A stretch of DNA of 29,080 nucleotides from a virus (IMGVR_UViG_3300022074_000269:1-29080); one strand, 5' to 3'. Positions 1 to 27,134 are shown, counted from the first letter of the stretch. A program made the numbers and translations. Notes: generated by a model not told the origin, from the sequence alone.

Positions 1-2
1 GT

Positions 3-78
3 ATTAAACTATTATTTTATAAAAGTAGTTTAACATTAAACTATTTCTGGATGTATATTCGTTTAGCATTAAACTATT
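3..78. repeat. Three iteron-like direct repeats, ATTAAACTATT
   Basis: ATTAAACTATT occurs exactly at 3-13, 35-45 and 68-78, so the copies are 32 and 33 bases apart, about three helical turns. Copies two and three are preceded by GTTTAAC and GTTTAGC. Around copy two this makes a perfect palindrome, TAGTTTAA-CA-TTAAACTA (26-43); around copy three it is a weaker one (61-74). Regular helical spacing and dyad symmetry suggest binding sites for a dimeric protein, either a regulator or an origin binder. Confidence 0.6.
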
Positions 79-210
79 GAGCGTTTAGGGTTTAAATAAC
101 TTAAGCAACTACACCACCACCTAGTAAACAGGTTGAAAAGCTTATCACCTAAAAATAATTATTAAAAGAATTGTAATGATATCAATCATTTAACTAACAG
201 TATAAAAAAA

Positions 211-270
211 AGTTAGGTTAAACTCTTGAAATAGCAGGATAACAGAATTAACTGTTACTCATATTAATAA
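211..270 (+). promoter_or_regulatory. Promoter/operator-like element ahead of the first gene
   Basis: The stretch begins AGTTAGGTTAAACTCTTGAA and contains CTTGAAATA (225-233), close to the element at 1191-1240. An inverted repeat TAACAG-AATTAA-CTGTTA lies at 240-257, and TATTAATAA follows. TTGAAA at 226-231 could be a -35 box, but no well-spaced -10 is obvious, so the exact promoter is uncertain. It heads the gene starting at 294. Confidence 0.45.
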
Positions 271-293
271 TTAAATGAAAAGGACTTGCTCTT

Positions 294-566
294 ATGGCTA
301 CTGATATTATCACAAATAAATATGGCGAAGCTTTCAAAAAGGTTGCTTTAAAAGATCTTAAAAAAGGTGACGAATTTAAAAGAAAACCAGACGCACTTAA
401 AAATTTCTATAAAGCTCACTACAATAGAAAATCATATCTACAACCTACAGCTAGTTACACCTGTATTCCTGATAATGATTTCCTAGGGTCTGGAATAGAA
501 ATAAACGCTAAAGCATACGTATATGTGGATGTAAATGGTCCAATAAACTACAGTGGAGTATTATAA
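294..566 (+). CDS. Small hypothetical protein, 90 aa
   Basis: I do not recognise this protein. It is lysine-rich at the N-terminus (several Lys/Asp/Glu pairs around residues 15-35) and more hydrophobic towards the end, with an alternating-residue stretch near 65-80 that looks like beta strands. The ATG is preceded by AAAAGGA about ten bases upstream. It is the first gene after the non-coding left region and lies just before the glycosylase-like gene, probably in the same transcript. Position and size suggest an early host-takeover gene, which is inference only. Confidence 0.7.
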   Translation: MATDIITNKYGEAFKKVALKDLKKGDEFKRKPDALKNFYKAHYNRKSYLQPTASYTCIPDNDFLGSGIEINAKAYVYVDVNGPINYSGVL

Positions 567-567
567 A

Positions 568-1158
568 ATGGATAACATATTAAAAGTATTTTCTCTTGCT
601 ACACCTGATGAAATTGCAGATGGCATTAAATGGTATGCAGAAGCGCAAGCCATATCTAAAAAGTTAGCACTAAAACATGATATGCCATTGCATATAGTTG
701 TGGGAGTTATGGCTTCTTTATCTCCCAACAATAAATGGGAAAGAAATGTACAGAATACAGACGAATTGATTGCAGCATATCTTAATGGCGATGCAATCGA
801 GAGTATCAAAGTGTCAACCTATAACAAAATGAAAGAAAAAGCGTGGTCAATTCTGGATGCAATGCCTGATCATGAACAAACTATTTCAATCCTTAATGGT
901 CAAAAGATTATATCATTTTACAGGAATATTATGGGTGACGATACGTGTACTGTAGATGGACACGCCTATAACATTTGGCGCTATGAGCGTCATGGATTAA
1001 CTACAGACAAGACAAACATAGGCAAAAAGTTATATACTGAAATACAGCAAGCTTATGTTAATGCAGCTAATGCAACACTAGTAAATGGTCGCAAGCTTAA
1101 AGCCTTTGAGATGCAAGCTATAACATGGGTCACATGGAAACGTATACATAATATATAA
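568..1158 (+). CDS. Phage protein with OGG1-like helix-hairpin-helix glycosylase features, 196 aa
   Basis: This is a helical protein of about 196 residues. Three segments look conserved by style: ASLSPNNKWERN (residues 49-60), NGQKIISFYRNI followed by TVDGHAYNIW (110-137), and the C-terminal FEMQAITWVTWKRIH. A Gly-x-Lys turn (K113) followed by V-D-x-H (D130, H132) matches the arrangement around the catalytic lysine and aspartate of OGG1-type HhH-GPD DNA glycosylases. The family match is an inference from these motifs. The start at 568 is chosen because GTGGAG lies about nine bases upstream; an in-frame GTG at 553 would overlap the previous gene. It could instead be a phage protein that merely shares the fold. 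Confidence 0.7.
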   Translation: MDNILKVFSLATPDEIADGIKWYAEAQAISKKLALKHDMPLHIVVGVMASLSPNNKWERNVQNTDELIAAYLNGDAIESIKVSTYNKMKEKAWSILDAMPDHEQTISILNGQKIISFYRNIMGDDTCTVDGHAYNIWRYERHGLTTDKTNIGKKLYTEIQQAYVNAANATLVNGRKLKAFEMQAITWVTWKRIHNI

Positions 1159-1193
1159 TTAAATCAGGAGGTTATAAGATAAATAAAAAATAG

Positions 1194-1234
1194 TTAGGTA
1201 AACACTTGAAATATAAACATTAGTGTTTACCTAA
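1194..1234 (+). promoter_or_regulatory. 13-bp perfect inverted repeat enclosing the ACTTGAAATA element
   Basis: TTAGGTAAACACT (1194-1206) is perfectly complementary to AGTGTTTACCTAA (1222-1234), with 15 bases between. TTGAAA (1206-1211) starts at the end of the left arm, and CCTAAT (1230-1235) lies 18 bases further on, which could be -35 and -10 boxes. It stands alone between the genes ending at 1158 and starting at 1271. The best reading is a promoter overlapped by an operator; a structured RNA leader is the alternative. Confidence 0.55.
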
Positions 1235-1270
1235 TTAATAACAGCAACAAATAAAAAAGGGATAGATAAA

Positions 1271-1519
1271 ATGAAAAACATCACAAGACACACTGGTAAA
1301 CTTGTAATTATTAAACGTCTTAAAAATAGCACAATGGGAAACCCTAAGTTCTTATGTGCTATAATAAATGAGGCAAGAACTGGTTTTGGTTTTGAGACTG
1401 CAACAAATTCTGGACATGCTTATTCAATAGAAAACTATGAAAACAAAAATGTTGCTGTAGAAATTGGAACGTATCGCAACAAGGCAACACTGCACACTAT
1501 TAAAGAAATGGGAGTATAA
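1271..1519 (+). CDS. Small hypothetical protein, 82 aa
   Basis: I do not recognise a named family. The protein is basic at the start (KNITRHTGKLVIIKRLKN) and mixed beta-like afterwards, with FETATNSGHAYSIENYENK near the middle and a lysine-rich end. It reads like a compact single domain rather than a membrane protein. The ATG follows AAAAAAGGGATAGATAAA, a plausible ribosome binding site. It is the first gene after the inverted-repeat element at 1194-1234 and heads a run of overlapping or closely spaced small genes up to 2270. Confidence 0.7.
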   Translation: MKNITRHTGKLVIIKRLKNSTMGNPKFLCAIINEARTGFGFETATNSGHAYSIENYENKNVAVEIGTYRNKATLHTIKEMGV

Positions 1520-1523
1520 GACA

Positions 1524-1661
1524 ATGGAAATCAAACAAGTAAAAAATGAGTATGGTTTAAAAGTTTGGCACGTAAGGGACGAGGGATGCATTCAAGAGTT
1601 TTGGACGCTTAAGGAAGCGTTAGACTATGTAGAATACGTCAAGAGCATAGAGGGAGAATGA
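1524..1661 (+). CDS. Small hypothetical protein, 45 aa
   Basis: The 45-residue product has a charged and aromatic sequence (KVWHVRDEGCIQEFWTLKEA) and no membrane segment. The start at 1524 is chosen because GGAG lies at 1511-1514; a longer reading from 1464 would overlap the preceding gene by 56 bases. Its stop almost touches the next start, so the two are probably translated together. Function unknown. The pattern of two strands followed by a helix would suit a small binding domain, but that is a guess. Confidence 0.6.
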   Translation: MEIKQVKNEYGLKVWHVRDEGCIQEFWTLKEALDYVEYVKSIEGE

Positions 1662-1662
1662 A

Positions 1663-1902
1663 ATGATAACACCTGATAGAATACCTGAGCTATTAAAATT
1701 TTGGTTATCAAATGGACAAACCTATGAGAGTTTAAGTGAAGCAATTAATGTAAGGATAACTACACTTAAGAACGAATTGAAAAGCTTTAGACAAGGCGTA
1801 AGGCCAAGTTATGTGAGTGCAGAAATGGGGGAAATAATGAGTAACATATACAACTATGAACAGGCATTAGAGCTATTGGAGGGAATGCAAAATGATAACT
1901 GA
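1663..1902 (+). CDS. Small hypothetical protein, possible HTH, 79 aa
   Basis: The protein is mostly helical. Residues 18-42 (NGQTYESLSEAINVRITTLK and the basic stretch after it) resemble a helix-turn-helix: a 'yeslseAi' helix, a turn, then a basic helix. This suggests DNA binding but is weak evidence. The ATG follows GAGGGAGA of the upstream gene end. Its last codons overlap the next small gene at 1892 by 11 bases, typical of a packed phage early operon. Confidence 0.65.
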   Translation: MITPDRIPELLKFWLSNGQTYESLSEAINVRITTLKNELKSFRQGVRPSYVSAEMGEIMSNIYNYEQALELLEGMQNDN

Positions 1903-2071
1903 TACTATGACATATCAAAAAGAAAAACTGTATAGGCTAAGTGAATATCTGGATGGTCTAACTACAAAAGCGACAAGCGTTTTTTGTAATGAGTTAGAAC
2001 AAACGCAAGCCCTAACTAAACTATGTAAAATAAATAATACTATTGAAAGGATATTGAACGATGAAAAATAA
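1892..2071 (+). CDS. Small helical hypothetical protein, 59 aa
   Basis: This short gene begins MITDTMTYQKEKLYRLSEYL and ends TIERILNDEK. It fills what would otherwise be a gap between two genes. It overlaps both neighbours by exactly 11 bases, and its ATG has GGAGGGAATGC directly upstream, a strong ribosome binding site. The residues suggest one or two amphipathic helices with two cysteines. No family recognised. Neat overlaps and the RBS make it likely real. Confidence 0.6.
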   Translation: MITDTMTYQKEKLYRLSEYLDGLTTKATSVFCNELEQTQALTKLCKINNTIERILNDEK

Positions 2072-2270
2072 TCTAATCAGGATAAATCATGCTACTGGTG
2101 CAGCATTGGAAGTGTTAACAGAAATAACGCAGTTAACTAGTAAGCTTGAACACATACAGGAGTTAGCAATAGAGGTGAAAGGCTCTGGTGCAATACCAAT
2201 TGAAGTAAGGGAAGCCCTAGAAGAAATTGTTTTCTCGTGTGGAAATTTAATTGCGAGAGGTAAAGAATAA
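2061..2270 (+). CDS. Small helical hypothetical protein, 69 aa
   Basis: The product is rich in Ala, Leu, Ile and Glu with heptad-like spacing from residue 12 to 65, consistent with a helical hairpin or coiled coil. There is no membrane segment. AAAGGAT lies about nine bases upstream of the ATG. It closes the small operon that begins at 1271; the next conserved intergenic element follows its stop. Function unknown. Confidence 0.65.
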   Translation: MKNNLIRINHATGAALEVLTEITQLTSKLEHIQELAIEVKGSGAIPIEVREALEEIVFSCGNLIARGKE

Positions 2271-2279
2271 TTATAGGAC

Positions 2280-2317
2280 TACTTGAATTGTAAAAATTAA
2301 TGCTTACTTAATAAGTA
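2280..2317 (+). promoter_or_regulatory. Promoter/operator-like element, third copy of the ACTTGAA family
   Basis: From ACTTGAA onward, 26 of 32 positions match the element at 1204-1235 without gaps (ACTTGAA-TAAA-ATTA-TG-TTAC-TAAT pattern). It also carries a dyad, TACTTA-A-TAAGTA (2305-2317). TTGAAT followed 18 bases later by CTTAAT could act as -35/-10. It lies in the 73-base gap before the gene at 2344. The recurrence is seen directly; promoter function is inferred. Confidence 0.5.
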
Positions 2318-2343
2318 CATACAAAAGAAAAAGGAAAAATGAA

Positions 2344-2538
2344 ATGACTGTAACACTCAACCAAATACTAGCTATGGAAAATGTCCTAGCTACTCGCAAA
2401 ATACCTAGCGACATAGAAGCTATGGCAAAAGCCAAGCGATACAGCGAAAGCAAACAAAAAGTAATTACACTAGGTGATCAACCACTACACTACGTGTTAC
2501 GCATACTAGCTAAGGAGGGCTTAGGTGATGCAGTTTAA
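2344..2538 (+). CDS. Small hypothetical protein, 64 aa
   Basis: A short protein with a basic helix-rich centre (TRKIPSDIEAMAKAKRYSES) and a hydrophobic C-terminal helix (PLHYVLRILAKEGLGDAV). No recognised family. The ATG follows AAAAGGAAAAATGAA. It is the first gene behind the conserved element at 2280-2317 and its end overlaps the next gene by 11 bases. Function unknown. Confidence 0.65.
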   Translation: MTVTLNQILAMENVLATRKIPSDIEAMAKAKRYSESKQKVITLGDQPLHYVLRILAKEGLGDAV

Positions 2539-2704
2539 AGATGTAATAATAGGGGCTGAGGATCTGGAGTGTCACACAATAGACACTGTAGCTGAGGCAA
2601 TATCTGAACACATAATTGAGTTAGGTCTAGCAACACCTGAGACACTAACAGGATTTACTTGGAGGCTAGATGTTAGAATGAGGGTTGATAATGAGACTGT
2701 ATAA
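2528..2704 (+). CDS. Small acidic hypothetical protein, 58 aa
   Basis: This short gene starts MQFKDVIIGAEDLECHTIDT and ends RMRVDNETV. It fills the gap between two neighbours, overlapping the upstream gene by 11 bases and the downstream one by 14. AAGGAGGGC lies upstream of the ATG, a strong ribosome binding site. The composition (acidic, beta-alpha-beta-like) looks like a real small domain. No family recognised. Confidence 0.6.
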   Translation: MQFKDVIIGAEDLECHTIDTVAEAISEHIIELGLATPETLTGFTWRLDVRMRVDNETV

Positions 2705-3020
2705 ATCAAGTAAGGGGCAATGGGTTGGCACTCAGAGAGATGCACAACGCTACTTCCCAAGAGACTGGGAGCAAGTTGAAGTGCCAGTATCTAAGGAGCA
2801 ACTAGTAGAATTTCTGAACGTCCACAAGGTAGGTGCTACACAGCCTGAGCAACAGCAACAGCAACAGCCAGTGATGGTTACACCTGACCCAGAGTTGATA
2901 GACCCAGAGGCTTACACTTGGGTACGTTGGGCATACGAAACGCTAAGGCGTGGCGATAAAAAAGAAACAGAAGCAATGCTTCTCAGAGGATTAGAAAAAC
3001 AAAAGGAGTTAATAAAATGA
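2691..3020 (+). CDS. Hypothetical protein with poly-glutamine linker, 109 aa
   Basis: Residues 1-45 form a first domain starting MRLYKSSKGQWVGTQRDAQR, which suggests a small beta-hairpin. A Gln-rich linker (about residues 53-59) follows, then a helical C-terminal domain (YTWVRWAYETLRRGDKKETE). The linker is coded by alternating CAA/CAG. The ATG at 2691 is preferred over an in-frame TTG at 2685; GAGGG lies upstream. Two short domains joined by a flexible linker suggest a scaffold or binding protein. No function assigned. Confidence 0.65.
   Translation: MRLYKSSKGQWVGTQRDAQRYFPRDWEQVEVPVSKEQLVEFLNVHKVGATQPEQQQQQQPVMVTPDPELIDPEAYTWVRWAYETLRRGDKKETEAMLLRGLEKQKELIK
2850..2867 (+). repeat. Short CAACAG tandem repeat
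   Basis: Three tandem CAACAG units lie inside the gene at 2691-3020 and encode most of its poly-glutamine linker. Such hexamer runs can change copy number by slippage without shifting frame, so linker length may vary among relatives. Confidence 0.8.
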
Positions 3021-3208
3021 AGTATACTGCATACTTCCAAGAGGAACTGCCACTTGACCACGAGCCTAGCCTAAATCATTGGGCTTGGATAATAGCAGAG
3101 GGTGAGATGGAGGATGGTGGCACTAACTGGGATTATGAATATGAACAAGCATGGCATTCATTAGATGCAGAATTTAATTACACATATGAATATAGGGAAG
3201 TAGTATAA
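3017..3208 (+). CDS. Small acidic, aromatic-rich hypothetical protein, 63 aa
   Basis: The 63-residue product is very acidic and rich in Tyr and Trp (LNHWAWIIAEGEMEDGGTNW, then several Tyr-Glu pairs). Strongly acidic, aromatic small phage proteins sometimes act as DNA mimics, but nothing here proves that. The start has AAAAGGAG about eight bases upstream. It overlaps the previous gene by four bases and shares one base with the next. Confidence 0.65.
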   Translation: MKYTAYFQEELPLDHEPSLNHWAWIIAEGEMEDGGTNWDYEYEQAWHSLDAEFNYTYEYREVV

Positions 3209-3408
3209 TGAAACTAATTAAAGTAAGGGTAAATAGAACCATAGAGTATGAAGTATCTGTGGGTGTGGATGATGACCACAAGTATGAACAAGTCAGGGAT
3301 TACTTACAGACTATAGACTGGGATAAAGAGATAGGAATATCACCCCAGAACTACAAACAAATATCAGACTACTATGACTGGATAGATTGGGAGGAAGAAA
3401 ATGTTTGA
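3208..3408 (+). CDS. Small acidic hypothetical protein, 66 aa
   Basis: It begins MKLIKVRVNRTIEYEVSVGV, a beta-hairpin-like stretch, followed by an acidic helix and an aromatic acidic tail (YYDWIDWEEENV). Like its upstream neighbour it is rich in Asp, Glu, Tyr and Trp. Its ATG overlaps the preceding TAA by one base, and its end overlaps the next gene by eight, so translation is probably coupled. No family recognised. Confidence 0.65.
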   Translation: MKLIKVRVNRTIEYEVSVGVDDDHKYEQVRDYLQTIDWDKEIGISPQNYKQISDYYDWIDWEEENV

Positions 3409-3649
3409 TGGATTAATAGATGATGAATGTAAATTGTGGGTGGTATTTTACACAGTTAGACAAAAGACTGGTACACCTGATCAACAGTGGGGCGATCCAG
3501 ATAACCCAGTTTATTTGAAAGACTACTGGGAGATTTGTTGGACTAAAGATGAAGCAGTTAAACACCACAAAAAGATCTTTGATATAGCTGACATACATGT
3601 GTCAGGTATTGCACCAATAGATCCAGAATACAGTACAGATTGGAGATAG
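3401..3649 (+). CDS. Small hypothetical protein, 82 aa
   Basis: The protein starts MFDGLIDDECKLWVVFYTVR and contains several aromatic residues and His/Lys pairs (DEAVKHHKKIFDIADIHVSG). A beta-alpha-beta layout is likely. It has no membrane segment. GGGAGGAAGAAA immediately precedes the ATG, a strong ribosome binding site. Function unknown. It belongs to the same overlapped run as the acidic genes before it. Confidence 0.65.
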   Translation: MFDGLIDDECKLWVVFYTVRQKTGTPDQQWGDPDNPVYLKDYWEICWTKDEAVKHHKKIFDIADIHVSGIAPIDPEYSTDWR

Positions 3650-3651
3650 AA

Positions 3652-3891
3652 ATGAAACATGTATGGTCACTAAAAAGATTAGATTGGAATGATGAAAGAA
3701 AAGAATTTATAGAACGCTACACTAGTCTACATCAGAGTAGTCGCAAGGCTAGACGTGCAGCGATAGAGTACATAACAATTCAAAAAGCAGAAAAGGATTT
3801 AGATACCTACGAATATCACAAAGGCTTTTACACTCTGACATCAGACAGTAAGAACACACACTGTATTGTCTCAAAAAGTTTTGTGGACTAG
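3652..3891 (+). CDS. Small basic hypothetical protein, 79 aa
   Basis: The start at 3652 is chosen because TGGAGATAGAA lies directly upstream; an earlier in-frame TTG at 3640 is less likely. The product is basic and helical, with SSRKARRAAIEYITIQKAEK in the centre, and could bind nucleic acid, though this is only composition. It contrasts with the acidic proteins encoded just before. No family recognised. Confidence 0.6.
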   Translation: MKHVWSLKRLDWNDERKEFIERYTSLHQSSRKARRAAIEYITIQKAEKDLDTYEYHKGFYTLTSDSKNTHCIVSKSFVD

Positions 3892-3949
3892 GGTTGAAAT
3901 GATTTTACATAACACACATATAAGTAGTATGAAACGAAAGGAAAATAAA

Positions 3950-4309
3950 ATGGAACTATCAATACACACAGCAAAGACAGTACGTGAACTGGCCTTTGCA
4001 GCAGCAGCAGTAGCGACAGACAGATACATTGAGAATGTACTGAAGGGTGAGGATGCTTTTAGTTGTGGCTTTGCATGGGTCACAGTCCAACCAAAACACA
4101 AGGGCAACACAAAGCTAGGGCGTGAAGAGCGTAAGGTACTACGTGCTCTAGGATTAGAGAAGGACTGGACAGAGAAAAGGTTTCAGTGGTGGAACCCTAG
4201 TAAGACATACTTCCAGAACATAGACTGCAAGGAAGAAGGGGCAAAGGCAGCAGCCAAAGTTTTAAAATCCTATGGACTGGATGCTTGGGCAAATTCAAGG
4301 TTAGACTAA
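3950..4309 (+). CDS. Conserved phage protein of unknown function, 119 aa
   Basis: The protein has an alpha-helical N-terminus (TVRELAFAAAAVATDRYIEN) and a C-terminal half with CGFAWVTVQPKHKGNTKLG, a WNPS segment, and a final DAWANSRLD. This GFAWV...WNP...SRLD pattern recurs, as I recall, in small proteins of many unrelated tailed phages; its function is not known to me. The start at 3950 is chosen because AAAGGA lies eight bases upstream; in-frame ATGs at 3899 and 3932 are alternatives. The gap at 3892-3949 holds no other feature. Confidence 0.7.
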   Translation: MELSIHTAKTVRELAFAAAAVATDRYIENVLKGEDAFSCGFAWVTVQPKHKGNTKLGREERKVLRALGLEKDWTEKRFQWWNPSKTYFQNIDCKEEGAKAAAKVLKSYGLDAWANSRLD

Positions 4310-4458
4310 TGGAGTATGTCATACGTATAAAAGGAAAGGGTGGTAAGTGTTTTGCTTATCACTCTACCAAAGATAAGTCAGAGCTAGACAGATTAGTAAA
4401 AAAATATTTAGCCATGAAAGATATAACATTTGAAATTCACAGGAGGTATTTAGCCTAA
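4309..4458 (+). CDS. Small basic hypothetical protein, 49 aa
   Basis: This short gene begins MEYVIRIKGKGGKCFAYHST. Its ATG overlaps the preceding stop (TAATG) and its own stop overlaps the following ATG in the same way. AAGG upstream may serve as ribosome binding site. The residues suggest a small beta-beta-alpha fold with many lysines. Its place in a chain of overlapping genes supports it. Function unknown. Confidence 0.55.
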   Translation: MEYVIRIKGKGGKCFAYHSTKDKSELDRLVKKYLAMKDITFEIHRRYLA

Positions 4459-4535
4459 TGGAAACAGAGATGATAGCTATTTTTTGTACCTTGGTATTCT
4501 GGTTGTGGTTAATTTTTATAGGAATAAAAAAGTAA
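4458..4535 (+). CDS. Tiny single-pass membrane peptide, 25 aa
   Basis: The peptide has six N-terminal residues including two Glu, about 17 strongly hydrophobic residues with two Trp, and a GIKK end, the classic layout of a single-span membrane peptide. AGGAGG at 4441-4446 lies upstream of the ATG, which overlaps the preceding TAA. A role at the host membrane (such as exclusion or depolarisation) is possible, but nothing specific can be read from 25 residues. Confidence 0.5.
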   Translation: METEMIAIFCTLVFWLWLIFIGIKK

Positions 4536-4554
4536 GTGAGACAATCTGTCATAC

Positions 4555-4659
4555 TTGAAATGAAATAGTGTGAGTATAACTAACTTAAAGTATTACTAAT
4601 AGAATAAACTAATATCTTTTATTTCTTTAGTTAATATTACTACAAGTAATACTTTAAGT
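4555..4659 (+). promoter_or_regulatory. Intergenic control element with a 15-bp perfect inverted repeat
   Basis: The 144-base gap between genes begins with ACTTGAAAT (fourth member of the recurring family), then TATAACTAAC. ACTTAAAGTATTACT (4583-4597) is then perfectly complementary to AGTAATACTTTAAGT (4645-4659). Inside it, AACTAA (4607-4612) can pair with TTAGTT (4627-4632). No T-run follows, so it is not a standard terminator. A pair of regulator sites, or a long 5' leader hairpin ahead of the gene at 4680, are the main options. Confidence 0.5.
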
Positions 4660-4679
4660 ACAAACCAAAGGAGTGGGTT

Positions 4680-4880
4680 GTGGCTGATGCTAAGTTTAAA
4701 AACATTATGAAAAGACTTGAGTGTGAGACTGAGGAAGAATTGATAACAAGATTACTTGAAGCAAACAGTGAATTGTTGGAGGCCATCTATGACCTACAGT
4801 GGTTCATGGAAGAAAAGAATTTAACGTCAAAAGACTTTCACAAGTGGCAAGAAGAAAAAGAACTGAGGATATACCATTGA
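4680..4880 (+). CDS. Small helical hypothetical protein, 66 aa
   Basis: The gene starts with GTG, with AAAGGAG about eight bases upstream. The product is highly charged and helical (MKRLECETEEELITRLLEAN, then further Leu/Glu heptads), suggesting a coiled coil. There is no membrane segment. It is the first gene behind the inverted-repeat element and its stop overlaps the TTG start of the next gene. Function unknown. Confidence 0.6.
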   Translation: MADAKFKNIMKRLECETEEELITRLLEANSELLEAIYDLQWFMEEKNLTSKDFHKWQEEKELRIYH

Positions 4881-5092
4881 ATATTTATTTACCAGAACCA
4901 ATAACAATTTTAGTAGGAGTCTTGGCATTTCTTTTAGGCTTCCTATATAAGAAACATAGCGACAAAGAAGATATAGCTGACGCATTCGAGGAAGGATTTG
5001 AGAAAGGAACTAAGGATGTAGTAAGGGCTTTGTCTGATATAACAGGGAGGGACATGCAAATTGAACTGGAAAGGGAAGACTTGGACAGATGA
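4877..5092 (+). CDS. Small membrane protein with charged tail, 71 aa
   Basis: A start at TTG 4877 gives NIYLPEP followed by a membrane span (ITILVGVLAFLLGFLY), then a charged cytoplasmic-type helix (HSDKEDIADAFEEGFEKGTK and beyond). GAGGAT lies upstream and the TTG overlaps the previous stop. A GTG at 4799 in the same frame would overlap the previous gene by 82 bases and is unlikely. One N-terminal span plus a long helical tail resembles an i-spanin or a membrane anchor, but no lysis genes flank it, so I leave it unnamed. Confidence 0.6.
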   Translation: MNIYLPEPITILVGVLAFLLGFLYKKHSDKEDIADAFEEGFEKGTKDVVRALSDITGRDMQIELEREDLDR

Positions 5093-5133
5093 TCCACATG
5101 ATGAAGTAACACACTGGATAGGGAGAATGAATT

Positions 5134-5319
5134 GTGAGACACTTAAGATACGAGGAAGAGAAAGTTGTTGCTGTACAACAATATATTATAGACCTACAGA
5201 GGGACATCAGTGACCTTGAGTGGGATGGAGAAAACAAAAAGGCAAACAACCTAAAGAGAATACTAGATGATGTTAAACAACAGAGAGATAAGGGGGAAGT
5301 ATGGTATCCAATGTTTTAA
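5134..5319 (+). CDS. Small coiled-coil hypothetical protein, 61 aa
   Basis: The gene starts with GTG, with GGGAG about eight bases upstream. The product is a long charged helix (KVVAVQQYIIDLQRDISDLE, then Lys-rich heptads), probably a coiled coil. The 41 bases before it hold no clear gene. It overlaps the following short gene by 19 bases. Function unknown. Confidence 0.55.
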   Translation: MRHLRYEEEKVVAVQQYIIDLQRDISDLEWDGENKKANNLKRILDDVKQQRDKGEVWYPMF

Positions 5320-5441
5320 TAGATGACGCAGATAGAGTAGAATATTTATGTGACACAAAAGGAAAAATAGAGTTAGCAAATAGGATTGTTCTTTTAGAAA
5401 AGAGATTAAAGAGAATAAAAGAGATAACAGAAAAGAAATAG
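5301..5441 (+). CDS. Small helical hypothetical protein, 46 aa
   Basis: This short gene begins MVSNVLIDDADRVEYLCDTK and ends in a basic helix (LLEKRLKRIKEITEKK). AGGGGGAAGT directly precedes the ATG, a strong ribosome binding site located inside the end of the upstream gene. One cysteine, no membrane span. No family recognised. Overlap and RBS support it. Confidence 0.5.
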   Translation: MVSNVLIDDADRVEYLCDTKGKIELANRIVLLEKRLKRIKEITEKK

Positions 5442-5452
5442 GAGACAGAAGA

Positions 5453-5626
5453 ATGATGTTTGTATTAGTGTGGATGCAGTTGTTCAGCACACAGACAGTG
5501 GAACACTACCAGTTAGGCAACTATGCCACACTGGAAGAGTGCCAGATTGAACTGAGCAAAGCAGCCAAGATGGTAACGCACAAGTCAGAGACAGTGGCTT
5601 GTCTAGAGGTAGAGGTACAGCAATGA
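5453..5626 (+). CDS. Small protein with hydrophobic N-terminus and paired cysteines, 57 aa
   Basis: The protein begins MMFVLVWMQLF, a short hydrophobic leader, followed by a polar domain with Cys30 (TLEEC) and Cys50 (VACLEVEV). Leader plus two cysteines suggests export and a disulphide, or a membrane-tethered peptide. GGAGACAGAAG precedes the two consecutive ATGs. Its stop overlaps the next start (ATGA). No family recognised. Confidence 0.6.
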   Translation: MMFVLVWMQLFSTQTVEHYQLGNYATLEECQIELSKAAKMVTHKSETVACLEVEVQQ

Positions 5627-5814
5627 CACCTAGTGAAGCAGCAGAGGTAGAAGCTAAGAAAACATTCGAGGGCTTTATCAAGTGGTGTAAGGTTTCATTC
5701 TACTGGATCATGGCAATCCTAGTGATCCTGGCATGGTGTGACTTTGGAGCAGACACTGAGACTGGTAGCCAGTACAATGGTGAGGTCTACGCACCAAAGA
5801 ATATAGGTAACTAG
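5623..5814 (+). CDS. Small single-span membrane protein, 63 aa
   Basis: After an acidic and then basic N-terminus (MTPSEAAEVEAKKTFEGFIK) comes one membrane segment (FYWIMAILVILAWCDF, about residues 29-45) and a short polar tail. The start at 5623 is chosen because it overlaps the previous stop as ATGA; an upstream in-frame alternative at 5599 has no better site. It could be a holin or inner-membrane factor, but one span and no lysis context are too little to name it. Confidence 0.6.
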   Translation: MTPSEAAEVEAKKTFEGFIKWCKVSFYWIMAILVILAWCDFGADTETGSQYNGEVYAPKNIGN

Positions 5815-5815
5815 T

Positions 5816-6046
5816 ATGCAACCAAAAGATAAACCATCACACATTCGTATCAAGCACGAGCCTACTCAGACACAAACAAAAAGAATCTGCAAACTCTATG
5901 GAAAACAATTTCGTAACATGGCAGAGGCAGCAAGGTACTGGGACATCAGTTATGCCTGGGCATCTGAACAAGTAAGGAAGGGTTGGAATCAGAATAACTT
6001 TCCACCTAAAGCGAGAAAGGGATATTCTTTAAGATGGTGGGGATAA
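5816..6046 (+). CDS. Small basic protein with NUMOD1-like DNA-binding segment, 76 aa
   Basis: The protein is basic. Its segment YGKQFRNMAEAARYWDISYA (about residues 27-46) fits the pattern of NUMOD1-type helix-turn-helix repeats (F-x-S/N-x-x-EAAR-x-x-x-IS), which in homing endonucleases and regulators bind DNA. No nuclease domain is attached. The ATG comes two bases after the previous stop. I infer DNA binding; the family call is tentative. Confidence 0.6.
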   Translation: MQPKDKPSHIRIKHEPTQTQTKRICKLYGKQFRNMAEAARYWDISYAWASEQVRKGWNQNNFPPKARKGYSLRWWG

Positions 6047-6071
6047 CAATTAAAGAAAGGAGGGACTACAC

Positions 6072-6254
6072 ATGGACTGTTGGCACTGTAAGTCTGAATT
6101 AATTTGGGGTGGAGACCACGACATTGATGAAGAAGAGACCTATTTATTTGGAGACTACAGCATGGTTACAAACCTTAGTTGTCCTGAGTGTAGCTCATAT
6201 GTCTTAGTGTACTATCCAAGGGAAGAAGAGGATGACATCAAAATGCATTCGTGA
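6072..6254 (+). CDS. Small zinc-ribbon protein, 60 aa
   Basis: A CxxC pair in MDCWHCKSELIWGGDHD and a second in LSCPECSSYV (about residues 37-40) form a zinc-ribbon signature separated by an acidic loop. I recall similar 'CWHC...ELIWGGDHD' proteins in marine phages, usually close to replication genes, without known function. AAAGGAGGG lies about eight bases upstream, one of the best ribosome binding sites in the window. It sits immediately before the primase-helicase gene. Confidence 0.75.
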   Translation: MDCWHCKSELIWGGDHDIDEEETYLFGDYSMVTNLSCPECSSYVLVYYPREEEDDIKMHS

Positions 6255-6378
6255 TATGACTGAAGATGAAAGACAACGTTCAATTGAAAGGGAACAGTGT
6301 AACAATGAAAGCAATAGTAAACAGCAACAACGAGATAAACCATCAACCTTGCCCATTCGAGGACTGTGGAAGCAGTGA
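6232..6378 (+). CDS. Possible small overlapping gene, 48 aa
   Basis: This frame starts MTSKCIRDMTEDERQRSIER and ends in RGLWKQ. Its ATG is preceded by AAGGGAAGAAGAGG, a strong purine-rich site, and it bridges the end of the zinc-ribbon gene and the start of the primase gene. It overlaps the primase by 74 bases or more, which is unusual. It may be a real small highly charged protein, or the frame may only serve to carry ribosomes to the primase start. Confidence 0.3.
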   Translation: MTSKCIRDMTEDERQRSIEREQCNNESNSKQQQRDKPSTLPIRGLWKQ

Positions 6379-7903
6379 CGCATTCAGCTACAACGTAGTG
6401 TCAAAGGTTGGTCACTGTAAGTCTTGTGACAGGGGCTACCCAAACAGGGCTAAGATGTTTGCTTGGGCTGAGGAAACTTATCCAATGCCCACACCAAAGG
6501 TAGACCTACGTAACACAAAGATAATCAGTGGTAGGTTCGATGGCATCAGAGGACTAGATGAGGATGTAGCAAAGCTCTACAACATTCAGTTGCAGTATGG
6601 TGAGGGTGGTGTACCAGTCAGGTACGCATTCAAGTATTCAAATAACGTTAAGTATAGAGGCCATGACGAGAAGAAGTTCTGGACTAAGGAACGAGGAGCA
6701 CTGACTGACCTATTTGGTCCTGACTTTAATGCAGGATCTAGTAAACGTATCTATGTTACTGAGGGTGAGTTCGATGCAGCCAGTCTCTATCAGGTACTAG
6801 GCAAGTCCTACCCAGTTAAGTCTTTACCAAGTGGCTCATTCAATGATGAGTTCCTAAAGAAAAACTTTGACTACCTTAACAGTTTTGAGATGGTGGTCTA
6901 CGCAGGTGAGTTGTCTGATGACACAGGCAAGGCAGCAGCAGAGAAACTATACAGCACAATGCCTGACAAGTTTTACTACGTGCCTATGTCTAAGTGGAAG
7001 GATGCTAACGAGTTCCTCATGAAGGGTGATGGTGAAGATCTTAAGTGGGCAGCACTCAAGCCACAGAGATTCAGCCCTGATAACTTTTTTGTAGGTGACT
7101 TGGAAGTAGAGAAGGCTATCCTCTACGAGAACCCATACGAGTATGTACCTACTGGACATAGTGGGCTAGATGAAAAGCTACGAGGTATGGTCAAGGGTGG
7201 TATCACATTCATCAAGGCTATGAGAGGTCAGGGTAAGACTGAACTTGCCAGGTATTTCGAGTGTGCTCTCCTGGAACAGGGTGTAAAGATTGGCTTAGTC
7301 CACATGGAAGAGATGAAGTCTACAACCTTTCGAGCTATGGCAACCTATGAACTAGGTGTAAACGTCAGAACTAAAGAGGATGCACAAGCAAATGGATTTG
7401 AAGAGAGACAAGTAATTGATGCAGGTCAGAGGATGGCAAGGGATGAACACACTATCCCCTTTGAGATGCGTAGTCATGAAGATCCAATGAAGATACTTGA
7501 CCATGTAAGGACAGCAGTCACAGTCTATGGGGCAGAGTTCGTATTCATAGATCACGTTCAGCGTCTAGCCTACCTGTCAAACTCTGGGGTTGATGCAGCT
7601 ACCAGTACACTGACAACTCTTGGTGCTAGGATGGCACAGCTTGCCAAGGAACTAAACATTGGTGTTATCTTTATCTCTCAGGTCAACGAGGATGGACGCA
7701 CAAAGTATGCAGCATCCCTGGAGGAAGAGGCTATCATCTGTATCAAACTCAAGAGAGATACAGAAGCAGAGGATGATACAGAGCGTAACACCACACAGTT
7801 TATAGTTGATAAAAATAGACCCTTCTCTAAGCTAGGTAATGCAGGGTCAGTATACTACGAGCCTGAGACAACTATCCTAGAAGAGGTTGTATTTCAGGGA
7901 TGA
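6305..7903 (+). CDS. T7 gp4-like primase-helicase, 532 aa
   Basis: This is the replicative primase-helicase: it makes primers and unwinds DNA at the fork ahead of the adjacent polymerase. An N-terminal zinc motif (Cys16, Cys21, Cys38, Cys41) is at the same place as in T7 gp4 (17-39), which is why I choose the ATG at 6305 (AAAGGGA upstream); an ATG at 6266 is possible. A TOPRIM segment follows (VTEGEFDAASL, Glu153; SDDTG, 204-208). The RecA-type helicase has Walker A AMRGQGKT (305-312) and Walker B FIDH (Asp416). The usual TOPRIM DxD is altered: only the Asp205-Asp206 pair precedes the Gly. The stop overlaps the polymerase start by four bases. Confidence 0.93.
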   Translation: MKAIVNSNNEINHQPCPFEDCGSSDAFSYNVVSKVGHCKSCDRGYPNRAKMFAWAEETYPMPTPKVDLRNTKIISGRFDGIRGLDEDVAKLYNIQLQYGEGGVPVRYAFKYSNNVKYRGHDEKKFWTKERGALTDLFGPDFNAGSSKRIYVTEGEFDAASLYQVLGKSYPVKSLPSGSFNDEFLKKNFDYLNSFEMVVYAGELSDDTGKAAAEKLYSTMPDKFYYVPMSKWKDANEFLMKGDGEDLKWAALKPQRFSPDNFFVGDLEVEKAILYENPYEYVPTGHSGLDEKLRGMVKGGITFIKAMRGQGKTELARYFECALLEQGVKIGLVHMEEMKSTTFRAMATYELGVNVRTKEDAQANGFEERQVIDAGQRMARDEHTIPFEMRSHEDPMKILDHVRTAVTVYGAEFVFIDHVQRLAYLSNSGVDAATSTLTTLGARMAQLAKELNIGVIFISQVNEDGRTKYAASLEEEAIICIKLKRDTEAEDDTERNTTQFIVDKNRPFSKLGNAGSVYYEPETTILEEVVFQG

Positions 7904-9861
7904 GAATACTTGTCAGTGACATAGAAACAAATGGTTTAGACAACAGTACTAAGCTCTGGATTTGTGGTGGTAAGGATCTATCGACAGGAGAGACCAGTCG
8001 ATTTGATAATTGCCTTGATGATCCAGTGGCTAAGGCTAAGGCTATCCAGTGGTATGAATCAGCAGACCTGATTGTTGGTCACAACTTCTTACAGTTTGAT
8101 GCACCAATGATTAACAAGTTGTTGAAGCCAGGGTTAATCAACCCACAAAAAGTTGTTGATACTCTGCTAGTCAGTAGACTTCACGACTACAACATAGCTA
8201 TCCCAAAGGGTGCTCAAAAACCTCACAGCCTACAAGCCTGGGGAATAAGATTAAACAAACACAAAGGAGAGTTTCATGAGTTTGATAAGTTCAGCAATGA
8301 GATGGTTGAATACTGGTATCAAGACATCGAGGTTACAGAATCTCTGTTCAATCACTTCCATGATATTATTTGGAGTCCTGATTGGCGTAAGTCTTTAAGG
8401 ACAGAGCATGATGTTCAGATAGAACTGGTACGTACAAGGTACTATGGCTTTCAATTTGATAAGACAAAGGCTGAGTTTCTACTCAACTCTATTGAACAGA
8501 AGAAGAATACTTTAGAGGAGCAATTCCAGGTGGACTTCCCACCACAACTGACTGAGATCAATCGTGTGAAGTATCGACTCAAGAAGGATGGTACTGAGAT
8601 GGCAACAGTTGCAAAGGCAAAGGAGAAGTATGCTCTGACTAGCGTAGAGGGTGATGATCTTATTTGTTCTGACTGGATTGAGTTTAAACCTGGCTCACCA
8701 AAGGATCGTATCAAAGCCCTCTGGGATGCAGGTTGGAATCCTGTTGATAGGACAGAGACTGCCAAGAAGTTCTTCATGAGAAAGATTGGAGACCCTTGGG
8801 GTAAGTCAATAGAGGCTATGGATGAGGACTTCTACAATCAAAAGAAGAAACACTTTGATACCTTTGGATTTACTGTATCAGAAGCAAACCTTGGTACACT
8901 ACCTGACACAGCACCTACAGGAGCAAAGGCTCTAGCCCAGTGGCTGACACTAGAAGGACGCAGAAGCTCACTGGTGGAGTGGATAGGCCAGTGTGGTGAT
9001 GATCTACGTATTCATGGTAACATAAACAACATTGGTGCTTGGACTGGCAGGTGTTCACACTCTGATCCTAACACTGCTAATATTTCTGCTCCCTTTCATG
9101 GTGATGCAAAGACACCAGTAGAAGAAGTAAAGAAGCAGTATGACCAACACCTCAGAGCCTGTTGGACTGTACCCTCTACCTCTTGGCTAGTTGGTACTGA
9201 TGCTGATGGCATTCAGTTGAGAGTATTAGCTGACTATCTCTGGCGTATGTATGATGAGGATCAGTATGCTCAGGCTATCATGAAGGGTAAGAAAGAAAAC
9301 GAGACAGACATTCACAACGTCAACAAGAATGCTCTGGATGTGCCACTAGGTACGAGGGATATGGCAAAGACTTTTATCTATGCTTGGCTACTAGGTGCAG
9401 GGATAGCTAAGACTGGTCAGATCCTTAAAGTAAGTATGAAGGAAGCACAGGATGCACGTATTCGTTTCGAGCAAAGCATTGGAGGTCTGTATGATCTGAA
9501 GAACAAATACATAAAACAAGTTGGAGAGAATGGTTGGTTCAAGGGCTATGATGGAAGACAGGTAAAAGTACCTAGTACTCACAAAGCCTTGGCAGGTATC
9601 CTACAGAATGGTGAGGCTTGTCTGATGAAGTATACCCTCCTGCGTTGGCACGACAGAGCACGTAAGGAAGGGATCAACTTCAAGATGGTAGGGTTTATTC
9701 ATGATGAGTACCAGGTAGAAGTAATAGGCACAAAGGAAGAGGCTGAAAGACTTGGAAAGATACAGGCACAGGCCATGCTAGACGTAGGTCAGGACTTAGG
9801 TTTTAAGATTCCTACACCTGGCTCATACGACATAGGAAAAAATTGGGCTGAGACCCATTGA
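7900..9861 (+). CDS. Family A DNA polymerase with 3'-5' exonuclease, 653 aa
   Basis: This enzyme replicates the phage genome together with the primase-helicase. The N-terminal exonuclease shows Exo I (Asp7, Glu9 in SDIETNGLD), Exo II (GHNFLQFD) and Exo III (YWYQD), so proofreading should be intact. The polymerase domain has motif A DADGIQLR (Asp434), motif B RDMAKTFIYAWLLGAG (Arg486, Lys490, Tyr494) and motif C IHDEYQ (His601, Asp602, Glu603), close to T7 gp5. The residue matching E. coli Pol I 762 is Tyr, while that matching Tyr766 is Leu498. There is no 5'-3' exonuclease domain. Length is slightly below T7 gp5. Confidence 0.95.
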   Translation: MRILVSDIETNGLDNSTKLWICGGKDLSTGETSRFDNCLDDPVAKAKAIQWYESADLIVGHNFLQFDAPMINKLLKPGLINPQKVVDTLLVSRLHDYNIAIPKGAQKPHSLQAWGIRLNKHKGEFHEFDKFSNEMVEYWYQDIEVTESLFNHFHDIIWSPDWRKSLRTEHDVQIELVRTRYYGFQFDKTKAEFLLNSIEQKKNTLEEQFQVDFPPQLTEINRVKYRLKKDGTEMATVAKAKEKYALTSVEGDDLICSDWIEFKPGSPKDRIKALWDAGWNPVDRTETAKKFFMRKIGDPWGKSIEAMDEDFYNQKKKHFDTFGFTVSEANLGTLPDTAPTGAKALAQWLTLEGRRSSLVEWIGQCGDDLRIHGNINNIGAWTGRCSHSDPNTANISAPFHGDAKTPVEEVKKQYDQHLRACWTVPSTSWLVGTDADGIQLRVLADYLWRMYDEDQYAQAIMKGKKENETDIHNVNKNALDVPLGTRDMAKTFIYAWLLGAGIAKTGQILKVSMKEAQDARIRFEQSIGGLYDLKNKYIKQVGENGWFKGYDGRQVKVPSTHKALAGILQNGEACLMKYTLLRWHDRARKEGINFKMVGFIHDEYQVEVIGTKEEAERLGKIQAQAMLDVGQDLGFKIPTPGSYDIGKNWAETH

Positions 9862-9890
9862 CATATTGGGTTATAGACCTTAGATATAAT
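9858..9890 (+). promoter_or_regulatory. Possible sigma70-type promoter before the SSB gene
   Basis: TTGACA (9858-9863) overlaps the polymerase stop. TAGATA follows after 17 bases, and TATAAT (9885-9890) after 21. The start TTGACATATTGGG resembles TTGACCTATTGAGG at 11703. It would feed the SSB gene, whose own ribosome binding site (AAAAGGAGGG) is strong. Promoter activity is inferred. Confidence 0.45.
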
Positions 9891-9914
9891 AACAGTAAGT
9901 AAAAGGAGGGCAAC

Positions 9915-10439
9915 ATGCCATCAACACAGATAGATGTTAAAGGAAAAATTACTTGGGCTAAAGTATTTGAGTCCAATCGTGATCGTGCAGAGTTTCACCA
10001 GGCAACAGATGGTGCTTACAAAGTCACAGTCACTACAGACAAGGACACTGCAAAGACCTTAGAAAAAGAAGGCTGCAGAAAAAAGATAAAGAAAGTCGAT
10101 GGTGGCTTTGAGGTAACATTTGATAGACCTCACGTTGGCAATCATGACTGGCAGGGTGGTGCTCCTATCGTTGCTGATATAACTGGTAAGGCTTGGGATC
10201 TACAGGATAAGGGTCTCATTGGTAATGGCAGTGAAGGCATCATTAAAGTTGAAATATATCCTACCCCAATGGGTAAGGGTACAAGGCTTCTTGGACTCCA
10301 AGTCCTTGATCATGTGGTCTACGAATCAGAGGGTGGTTCCTCCCAACCACGTTCAATGTTTACAGATCACTCCAATAGTTCTAGTGGTTCTAAGTCTTCG
10401 ACTTCCTCCCAAGAACCACAGGACTCAATACCCTTCTAG
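9915..10439 (+). CDS. Single-stranded DNA-binding protein, 174 aa
   Basis: The protein has an OB-fold-like N-terminal part (VKGKITWAKVFESN, then VTVTTDKDT and later IKVEIYPTPM), a serine-rich flexible linker (about 140-165) and a terminal QDSIPF tip. The acidic, Pro-Phe ending is the hallmark by which SSB proteins contact partner proteins. It lies between the polymerase and exonuclease genes, as SSB does in many T7-like phages, and would coat single strands and organise the fork. Size and placement parallel T7 gp2.5, though sequence similarity is not obvious. AAAAGGAGGG precedes the ATG. An apparent alternative frame at 10219-10530 is a shadow. Confidence 0.85.
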   Translation: MPSTQIDVKGKITWAKVFESNRDRAEFHQATDGAYKVTVTTDKDTAKTLEKEGCRKKIKKVDGGFEVTFDRPHVGNHDWQGGAPIVADITGKAWDLQDKGLIGNGSEGIIKVEIYPTPMGKGTRLLGLQVLDHVVYESEGGSSQPRSMFTDHSNSSSGSKSSTSSQEPQDSIPF

Positions 10440-10510
10440 GTTTTTCCTGTTCCTTTCCCCTAGAAGAAAACGCCCTCACCTTTTTGTTCATTTTAGGTGG
10501 GGGCTATTTT
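10433..10510 (+). terminator. Tandem hairpins after the SSB gene, the second terminator-like
   Basis: First, CTTCTAGG (10433-10440, including the SSB stop) is perfectly complementary to CCTAGAAG (10459-10466). Second, GCCCTCACCT (10472-10481) pairs with AGGTGGGGGC (10495-10504) with one G-T wobble, followed by TATTTT. The second looks like a weak rho-independent terminator or attenuator. It would limit transcription from the SSB gene into the exonuclease gene and protect the SSB mRNA end. Confidence 0.6.
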
Positions 10511-10526
10511 ATAAGAAGAGAGAGAC

Positions 10527-11318
10527 ATGAGTTACACCTACATAAAAAACGTTATAACAGATATGACTAATGAAGACTATCACTCAACCAGTGGTATATC
10601 TTCAAGTGCTGTAAAGGCAGTCTACAAAAAATCTTTGGCACACTGGAAGGGTGAGAAACGTAACCCTAACAATCCTGCTTTTGCTATGGGTAGTGCTGTC
10701 CATGCTAACTTACTGGAGAAAGAACGTAACCTGGTAGTCAAAGGACCAAAGACTAAGTCTAGTCTTGCCTTTAAAGAGATGAAGAATAACCTTGCTGAGG
10801 ATCAGATACTACTTACTGAGGTAGAGTTTAACGTAGCCAACTGTATAACCAGGGGTGCTCTAAGTAATCCTTCTTGTGCCTCCTATCTCAATCATCCACA
10901 CAGACTAAACGAGGTGAGTATTTTTGTAGAAGATCCTATCTCAGGATTAATTTTGAAGACTCGTCCAGACTTATTGATTGAGGATGAACACACAGTCTTT
11001 GATGTAAAGACAACACAGGATGCTAGTCCAAGAGGATTTTTAAAAGAGTGTCTCAAGTATGGATACTTGTTGCAGGGTGCTCACTATGTTTACGCATGTA
11101 AGTTAGCAGGTTATGACGTAGATAAATTTTCTTTTATAGCCTGTGAAAAGTCTGCCCCCTATCTCTCACATATTCATTTGATGAGTTCTGAAATTATGCA
11201 CTGGGCTATGAAACAACTGCACAAAACTTTAGCTGTTATAGCAAAGGCAGAAAAAGATTCTGACTACAGCACAGGTTGGGGTGACTATACTGTTATTGAA
11301 AAACCTGACTGGTTATGA
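10527..11318 (+). CDS. PDDEXK exonuclease (RecE/exonuclease VIII-like), 263 aa
   Basis: The protein begins with a MTNEDYHSTSGISSSAVKAV segment typical of phage RecE-like/DUF3799 nucleases, then AMGSAVHANLLE. The catalytic core is TRPDLLIEDEHTVFDVKTT (Asp, then D-V-K) followed by LLQGAHYVYA with its Gln-x-x-Tyr. It probably chews 5' ends for recombination and for breakdown of host DNA, the job of gp6 in T7. It lies next to endonuclease I, overlapping its start by four bases, so the two are translationally coupled. The ribosome binding site (GAGAGAG) is weak, and the terminator-like hairpin upstream may lower its expression relative to SSB. Confidence 0.85.
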   Translation: MSYTYIKNVITDMTNEDYHSTSGISSSAVKAVYKKSLAHWKGEKRNPNNPAFAMGSAVHANLLEKERNLVVKGPKTKSSLAFKEMKNNLAEDQILLTEVEFNVANCITRGALSNPSCASYLNHPHRLNEVSIFVEDPISGLILKTRPDLLIEDEHTVFDVKTTQDASPRGFLKECLKYGYLLQGAHYVYACKLAGYDVDKFSFIACEKSAPYLSHIHLMSSEIMHWAMKQLHKTLAVIAKAEKDSDYSTGWGDYTVIEKPDWL

Positions 11319-11701
11319 ATAGAAGAGCCAGGGCTTTAAAGGCAGGGTATCGTTCTGGCTTTGAGGATGATGTAGCAAAAGAGTTACGATCTAAAGGAAT
11401 TAAGTTTACGTATGAAGAAGAAAAGATTAAGTGGGTTGATCTTAAAATAAGAACCTACACACCTGATTTTGTTTTACCCAATGGTATAATTATAGAAACC
11501 AAGGGACGATTTGTAGCAAACGATAGGCGTAAGCACAAAGAGATTTCAAAACAATTTCCTGAATTAGATATTCGTTTTGTTTTTCAAAACAGTAGAGCAA
11601 AACTATACAAGGGTGCTAGGTCTTCTTATGGAGACTGGTGTAAAAAGTATGGTTTTCAATACGCAGAAAAAACAATTCCTGATGATTGGTTAAAAGAATA
11701 G
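11315..11701 (+). CDS. T7-type endonuclease I (Holliday junction resolvase), 128 aa
   Basis: The product matches T7 gp3 in length and layout. The catalytic set is visible as Glu17 (SGFEDDVAKEL), Asp51 (TPDFVLPNG) and Glu61-x-Lys63 (IIETKGRF), with spacing almost the same as Glu20, Asp55, Glu65, Lys67 of T7. The enzyme cuts branched DNA, resolves recombination junctions before packaging, and takes part in host DNA breakdown with the exonuclease encoded just upstream. Start overlaps the exonuclease stop (ATGA). The C-terminus (SSYGDWCKKYGFQYAEK and on) is conserved in style as well. Confidence 0.93.
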   Translation: MNRRARALKAGYRSGFEDDVAKELRSKGIKFTYEEEKIKWVDLKIRTYTPDFVLPNGIIIETKGRFVANDRRKHKEISKQFPELDIRFVFQNSRAKLYKGARSSYGDWCKKYGFQYAEKTIPDDWLKE

Positions 11702-11702
11702 A

Positions 11703-11730
11703 TTGACCTATTGAGGTTCTTCTATATAAC
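11703..11730 (+). promoter_or_regulatory. Possible sigma70-type promoter before the mazG-nrdJ group
   Basis: TTGACC (11703-11708) and TATAAC (11725-11730) are separated by 16 bases, a good host-type promoter layout. It begins directly after the endonuclease stop and shares TTGAC-TATTG-G with the stretch at 9858. It would drive the small gene at 11743, mazG and nrdJ. Confidence 0.5.
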
Positions 11731-11742
11731 TTGGAGGTTCCT

Positions 11743-11898
11743 GTGTTGTTTGAGGTTACGATGTTATTAGAGTTAGATCCTGACGCAAATTTTATTGCTT
11801 CAGATAGTACAAAGACAAGTCTTGAAGAAATAATTCGAGACACCATATATGATTTAGACGATGTTAAAATTATAGAAATAGATGCAAAGGAGAAATGA
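11743..11898 (+). CDS. Small acidic hypothetical protein, 51 aa
   Basis: A GTG start gives LFEVTMLLELDPDANFIASD, a helix (LEEIIRDTIYDLDD) and a final beta strand (VKIIEIDAKEK). The beta-alpha-beta pattern with an acidic helix resembles small proteins in marine phages, but I cannot name a family. TTGGAGG lies about six bases upstream of the GTG and the stop overlaps the mazG start, so it is well supported as a real gene filling the 193-base gap. Confidence 0.65.
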   Translation: MLFEVTMLLELDPDANFIASDSTKTSLEEIIRDTIYDLDDVKIIEIDAKEK

Positions 11899-12275
11899 TG
11901 TTAACACACCAAGACTTAGAAGACATGGGATACTTTGAAGCTTTCGAGGAGAACAAACCAATTAATCTAGAGGACTACGCTGAGTGGGTAGAGAATAAAA
12001 TGATTACCTCTGGTGATAAAAGATTCTTAGAGAACACTATGGGTTTGATAGGAGAGACAGGAGAGTTCTTTGAAAAGCTAAAGAAACATAAGAGAGATGA
12101 CACACCCTTAGATAAACAGGGTGTTACACTGGAAGCAGGGGATATGTTCTTTTACTTCATAGCTATACTAAATCTTTTAGATATAAAGCTTGATGATGTA
12201 GTAAAAGAAAACATGAAGAAGCTAGACAGTAGAGAGAAACGTGGAAAATTAAAAGGATCAGGAGACTACAGATGA
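11895..12275 (+). CDS. mazG: MazG-like nucleotide pyrophosphohydrolase, 126 aa
   Basis: MazG-type enzymes cleave nucleoside triphosphates to monophosphate and pyrophosphate in an all-helical fold. The metal-binding set is seen as GETGEFFEK (Glu54, Glu57) and LEAGDMFFY (Glu80, Asp83). MazG is common in marine phages, where roles in nucleotide recycling or in lowering ppGpp have been proposed; which applies here cannot be read. It is a single-domain version about half the length of E. coli MazG. It lies directly before nrdJ with a four-base overlap, which links it to dNTP supply. Two consecutive ATGs are possible starts. Confidence 0.85.
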   Translation: MMLTHQDLEDMGYFEAFEENKPINLEDYAEWVENKMITSGDKRFLENTMGLIGETGEFFEKLKKHKRDDTPLDKQGVTLEAGDMFFYFIAILNLLDIKLDDVVKENMKKLDSREKRGKLKGSGDYR

Positions 12276-15297: not shown

Positions 15298-15300
15298 ACT

Positions 15301-27119: not shown

Positions 27120-27134
27120 AATTAAAATTACACC

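Follow-up and report, generated by a model that had tools for sequence, protein, structure and literature searches.

The window, that is, the whole stretch of 29,080 bases that was analysed, is one virus record with early and replication genes running rightward from position 294 and a structural arm running leftward. Judged from sequence, the phage is a CRP-9/CRP-13-like roseophage, with DNA polymerase identities of 80% to CRP-9 and 69% to CRP-13 and a large leftward protein 55% identical to that of CRP-13. It is a podophage, not a T4-type phage. The CRP-9 group combines a Cobavirus-type replication module with an HMO-2011-type morphogenesis module (PMC8528129). Since a contig with identical encoded proteins (L001) carries the noncoding region between the arms at 1140–2020, the left end of the window lies inside this inter-arm region. 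The Pfam search of the early proteins gave DUF7178 (568–1155) as the sole match above the cut-off, and the Rfam search of the window gave zero matches. Relatives of the DUF7178/phrog_3842 protein (568–1158) occur in 354 or more viral stretches.

The hexamer CTTGAA starts on the + strand at 225 (E1), 1205 (E2), 2282 (E3) and 4554 (E4), once in each of the gaps 1–293, 1159–1270, 2271–2343 and 4534–4679, which are the large gaps of the rightward arm, before the helicase and replication genes. The features at the locus are the following.

1–90, unstranded: palindromic repeats of the TAGTTTAAYRTTAAACTA type, ~33 bp apart, at the border of the inter-arm noncoding region, upstream of E1
226–254, + strand: E1, TTGAAA (226–231), N17, TAACTG (249–254)
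1159–1270, unstranded: E2 gap block, its conservation reaching from the stop codon to the next start codon, with flanking genes exchanged in relatives
1191–1237, + strand: E2, dyad arms enclosing TTGAAA (1206–1211), N16, TACCTA (1228–1233)
2281–2320, + strand: E3, near-copy of E2, TTGAAT (2283–2288), N16, TACTTA (2305–2310), then TACTTAATAAGTA
4536–4560, + strand: E4 box, GTGAGACAATCTGTCATACTTGAAA, with the partial palindrome GACA-N3-TGTC, from an alignment of 26 distinct sequences and a pattern scan
4555–4582, + strand: E4 putative core promoter, TTGAAA (4555–4560), N16, TAACTA (4577–4582), with TATAAC (4575–4580) as alternative −10
4583–4659, + strand: E4 leader, 20-nt arms (4583–4602/4640–4659) that are 90% complementary, with TACT-N3-AGTA-type units

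The preliminary description placed the elements in gaps, and this was borne out. All four + strand matches to CTTGAAW in 1–15300 fall inside these four gaps, which make up 10% of 1–6265 (Fisher 1e-4 for the gap restriction) and 4% of 1–15300 (Fisher 3e-6), and CTTGAA appeared in all four gaps in 0 of 5000 gap shuffles; since the motif was picked post hoc, these p values are flattering and are taken as descriptive. An excess over shuffled sequence was found for the E2/E3 consensus with up to 3 mismatches, which matches these two sites alone in the window (shuffle mean 0.00). It was not found for the 9-mer ACTTGAAWT alone, one mismatch allowed, which occurs 17 times in the window against 29.8 expected by chance. 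Being rarer than chance, the 9-mer is unusual for its position, not for its number.

The repeated core is present, but the sites are not four copies of one element. E2 and E3 are identical at 26 of 32 positions (1204–1235/2281–2312), exactly as had been stated, a value reached in 0 of 400 shuffles. E1 has in common with E2 the stretch ATAAAAAAxAGTTAGGTxAA (18/20, p = 0.01) and CTTGAAATA and is divergent downstream, and AGTTAGGTTAAACTC upstream of its core is likewise common to E2. At the site homologous to E1 in L003 (near 5933), ACTTGAAA is kept and the downstream part is different; conservation of the E1 −10 is not clear. E4 has only ACTTGAAAT in common with E2 (p = 0.5). Of the four "very similar" elements, then, the CTTGAA core stands in each, while the likeness of E1 to E2 stops at the upstream half and that of E4 at this short stretch. 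E1–E4 form at least two classes that share merely a −35-like core, with E1–E3 found in the closest relatives only and E4 clade-wide.

The E2/E3 consensus was found in only five viral contigs, each a close relative. The E2 dyad has 16-nt arms (1191–1206/1222–1237) that are 15/16 complementary; across five phages the arms are 14–16/16 complementary, and in L086 they are perfect after coordinated changes. The arms lie upstream of any transcript from E2 and so cannot form an RNA hairpin in it; they cover the −35 to −10 region, the place of an operator, and the dyad could be one. Dyads at or beside the motif had been described in general, and they hold for E2 (long dyad) and E4 (a short dyad, GACAATCTGTC, and a downstream pair), whereas those of E1 and E3 are weak only.

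At the E2 gap, an island of 114 bp (window 1158–1271, to 1276 in L122) is conserved, with 86–97% identity in L085, L086 and L122 between non-homologous neighbours. Upstream of it lies DUF7178 in the window and in L003, and a 315–317-aa protein in L122 and L086; downstream, three different gene arrangements were found. The gene upstream of E3 is also different in L122 and L085. The E2 block reaches from one gene's stop codon to the start codon of the next, so conservation concerns the block and not an adjacent gene. With the island constant and its neighbours differing among close relatives, the block serves as a joint for gene exchange.

E4 was found in 26 distinct relatives, with CTTGAA invariant and with the typical order GTGAGACAAYYTGYC, few bases, CTTGAAA, a TATAACTA-like box and the leader. 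The E4 box is the best-conserved stretch of the module, and the −10 is ambiguous, with TATAAC at 14 bp and TAACTA at 16 bp. E4 appears to be a clade-wide, older control module formed by the box, CTTGAA and a ~95-nt leader able to form a hairpin. In the searched stretches of the cobaviruses CRP-5 and ICBM2 and the HMO-2011-type CRP-2, no E4/E5-like module or leader was found.

In the predicted fold, the E4 leader is one long hairpin, with z from −2.1 to −4.4 across sequences and −3.7 in the window. The covariance model R1 scored window 4572–4665 at 78.8 bits, the window being among the model's own training sequences. In the leader alignment, 83.6% of the cells pair, part of this pairing being automatic because the TACT-N3-AGTA units are themselves palindromes. 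Double-changed cells numbered 54; shuffling gave 28, and sliding the partner gave no more than 10. Several of the double changes belong to one clade. Linker pairs outside the palindromic units covary (columns 67–140), perhaps by one event, and among stem mismatches G-U was not clearly favoured (12 G-U vs 8 A-C). Given the palindromic units, the shared clade changes and this count, selection on the RNA is not separable from selection on the DNA.

The opposite arm, outside the window across the noncoding region, is headed by E5, which consists of TTGTTT, few bases, CTTGAAGCGYGTATAACT and a long inverted leader, with the promoter form TTGAAG-N16-18-TATAAT or a near form. A model made from E4 leaders alone finds the E5 leaders of L001, L002, L003, L088, L090, L116 and L129 and both sites in CRP-13. 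Both arms are matched in L001, L002, L088, L090, L116, L129, L138+L140 and others, and stretches spanning both arms mostly have two leader places, one per arm. In L002/L185 there is an extra weak match beside E5, and the weak matches in L102 (2845) and L132 (2068) may be leftward copies. The leftward E5 leader of CRP-9 (L139), with a longer loop, scored below the cut in the search with this model, and RNAalifold on the E5 alignment, where MAFFT misplaces loops, gave no useful covariation. The E4 and E5 leaders are very AT-rich, at about 16–28% GC. In L116 and L114, the E4/E5 leader loops are by eye more alike within one phage group than between groups, and the two leaders of one group look as if they were co-evolving.

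Further upstream of E5 lies E6 (L001 about 1375–1560, − strand, outside the window), a dyad TGTTWACCAC...RTGGTWWACA abutting TTG-N16-TATAACTA. Among the 15 E6 sequences listed, TTG-N16-TATAAC stands directly before a small ORF. This conserved 36–47-aa ORF (e.g., MQIYKIDKKYYLCDARGYILLMTTSRKICEHYYNIGRVIIKKV) occurs at almost every true E5 locus examined, and since its ATG is no more than ~10 nt past the E6 −10, the message is probably leaderless. The product is a candidate early regulator.

Within the noncoding region, about four copies of TAGTTTAAYRTTAAACTA palindromic 18-mers, 22–33 bp apart, lie at window 1–90 (L001 1696–1800), and arrays of this type are also present in CRP-9 (55415–55550), CRP-13 (54669–54749), L002 and L003. 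The array is a possible origin or regulator site. Palindromes of the TGTGATCACA type are repeated in L002 (near 4760–5160), L004 (near 5210–5270) and the CRP-13 noncoding end; by eye, none was seen in window 1–300.

Phage-encoded polymerases and sigma factors were searched for. No single-subunit RNA polymerase (PF00940) was found in 6 related records, with the T7 control matching at 1e-110, and no sigma-70 region 2 (PF04542) was found in the related records searched, with control genomes matching. From these two results the host RNA polymerase is the likely reader, and T7-like promoters for a phage polymerase were rejected on the PF00940 search. A distant or new type of polymerase could have escaped these searches. 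A generic E. coli-style sigma-70 scan gave fewer sites than shuffles, and E1–E4 were not among them. In Alphaproteobacteria, more than 60% of sigma-70 promoters are without −7T, and a spacing of 17 is the most frequent one (Myers et al. 2021, PMC8407463). Because −7T is so often missing there, boxes such as TACCTA, TACTTA, TAACTA and TATAAC are accommodated, though an E. coli-style scan misses them. The geometry of a TTG −35 and a TA −10 at 16–18 bp is present with N16 in E2 and E3, with N17 in E1 and in strong forms in E5 and E6. The alphaproteobacterial promoters are alike in the TTG −35, the TA-led −10 often without −7T and the ~17-bp spacing; they differ in that the −35 here is CTTGAA, 16 is the usual spacing and conservation in E4/E5 extends well past the hexamers.

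It is therefore considered probable that the four gaps hold early promoters read by the host housekeeping RNA polymerase, E4 being a distinct, older module with an equivalent in the opposite arm. Here the preliminary description of repeated early promoters is favoured by position, conservation in relatives, the fixed −35/−10 geometry and the failure to find a phage RNA polymerase. We infer, each in its turn, promoter identity, the places of transcription start, an operator role for the dyads and what the leader does. The host sigma-70 polymerase would use a −35 TTG(AAA) and a TA-led −10 without −7T, 16–17 bp apart. E1, the predicted promoter that heads the rightward arm before the gene at 294, would fire early together with E2 and E3 into runs of small, exchangeable genes; E2 and E3 would be copies of one promoter block and serve as fixed joints for the gain and loss of small genes. 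The terminator scan of the window found no + strand terminator-like site upstream of position 12603, so transcripts probably run on and overlap. E4 would start or boost the replication operon, and the conserved box by its −35 suggests an additional activator or repressor. The E4 leader would form the very start of the transcript. Together with that of E5, it may take part in one step shared by the two arms, acting on the polymerase or the transcript of each; processive antitermination, message stability and replication priming are candidates.

The primary origin of T7 consists of tandem promoters and an AT-rich region. A comparable reading, possible but the less probable one, is that the leaders of E4 and E5 are not RNA structures but work as DNA, either as replication origins or as arrays for protein binding (TACT-N3-AGTA), with the promoter giving primer transcripts as at that origin. 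The likeness is AT-rich DNA lying past a promoter in the neighbourhood of replication genes, and the high AT content, the repeated palindromic units, the copy beside the replication genes and the lack of a clear preference for G-U over A-C in the stem agree with it. Unlike at T7, no phage RNA polymerase was found here, the inverted repeat is conserved and the opposite arm begins with a second copy. In addition, linker pairs beyond the palindromic units covary, perhaps by one event, and on both arms transcription from a promoter-like site would run into the leader.

The preliminary description went further and proposed one phage-specific regulon, in which the recurring element would be the operator of a phage-encoded DNA-binding regulator. 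We regard this as rather unlikely. The coordinated changes that keep the E2 dyad, a GGT(T)AAAC-CTTG by the −35 common to E1, E2 and the leftward E6, and a GTGACA-N3-TGTCAC-like box common to E4 and E5 would fit such a regulator. However, no dyad is common to E1–E4, the long one being kept by E2 alone; E2/E3 and E4 are separate classes, and the distance from the box to CTTGAA differs between E4 and E5. Nor was a matching regulator found: neither of the two HTH-like proteins suggested for binding tests (1663 and 5816) gave a Pfam match. The 5816 protein, three helices in a single-sequence fold (pLDDT 61, low confidence), is present in only 8 viral contigs, fewer than carry E4.

Similarly doubtful is a more specific form of the leader role, in which the same promoter-plus-hairpin leader on both arms would modify the host RNA polymerase by put-like antitermination for the long divergent operons. 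The HK022 putL/putR antitermination RNAs are alike in that each arm has, past its early promoter, one of a pair of related structured leaders, and a related copy past the early promoter of each arm was found here. Such leaders suppress termination through the β′ zinc-binding domain (PMC9378689). The leaders here, of another phage and host, differ in that a single long AU-rich hairpin is predicted instead of two ~70-nt stem-loops arranged as a V. If true, a marine podophage clade without its own RNA polymerase would read long divergent operons via a put-like leader.

CTTGAA is the −35 motif of sigma-32, and a CTTGAAA at −35 resembles sigma-32 promoters. The TTG triplet is moreover essential for RpoHI/RpoHII promoters (PMC3441632); nevertheless, host heat-shock (RpoH/sigma-32) promoters are very improbable here, since the C-rich −10 is absent at the expected distance and the sister promoters E5/E6 carry TATAAT/TATAAC. 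That a 7-mer recurs by chance in AT-rich gaps, to which the lack of over-representation of the degenerate 9-mer would point, is scarcely credible and was refuted for E2, E3 and E4 by the gap restriction, the E2/E3 identity and the conservation across relatives, E1 being the weakest case.

With host-read early promoters as the preferred reading, the arrangement is like that of the PeSL (promoter early stem-loop) cassettes of T4-type phages, as far as the work of Arbiol (2010) and Comeau (2014) is summarized in PMC4503421 and PMC3950731. In these summaries, an intergenic early promoter with an inverted repeat recurs and small genes are exchanged about it. The E2 dyad with its promoter-like site lies likewise in a small-gene gap, and flanking genes are exchanged while the element stays, on both sides at E2 and on the upstream side at E3. 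Compared with the cassettes so summarized, the dyad here overlaps the promoter, no terminator-like stem-loop follows, the copies are fewer and the phage is a podophage. Since neither the PeSL terminator nor the put two-stem fold was found, the elements are filed in neither family; they are classed as host-type promoters that form a new arrangement.

Promoters are unmentioned in the papers describing HMO-2011-type, CRP-9 and CRP-13 phages, and in that literature the transcriptional control of the CRP-9-type marine group appears undescribed. The four elements give a testable promoter map for this group and show small early genes exchanged about a fixed promoter block, and the leader in each arm may control the polymerase. 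Elsewhere in the window, the structural arm carries at 24893–28969 a set of sugar-nucleotide type, with a NAD epimerase, a cupin, a PfkB kinase, a cytidylyltransferase-like protein, a carbamoyltransferase and, on the + strand at 27135–27779, a HAD phosphatase.
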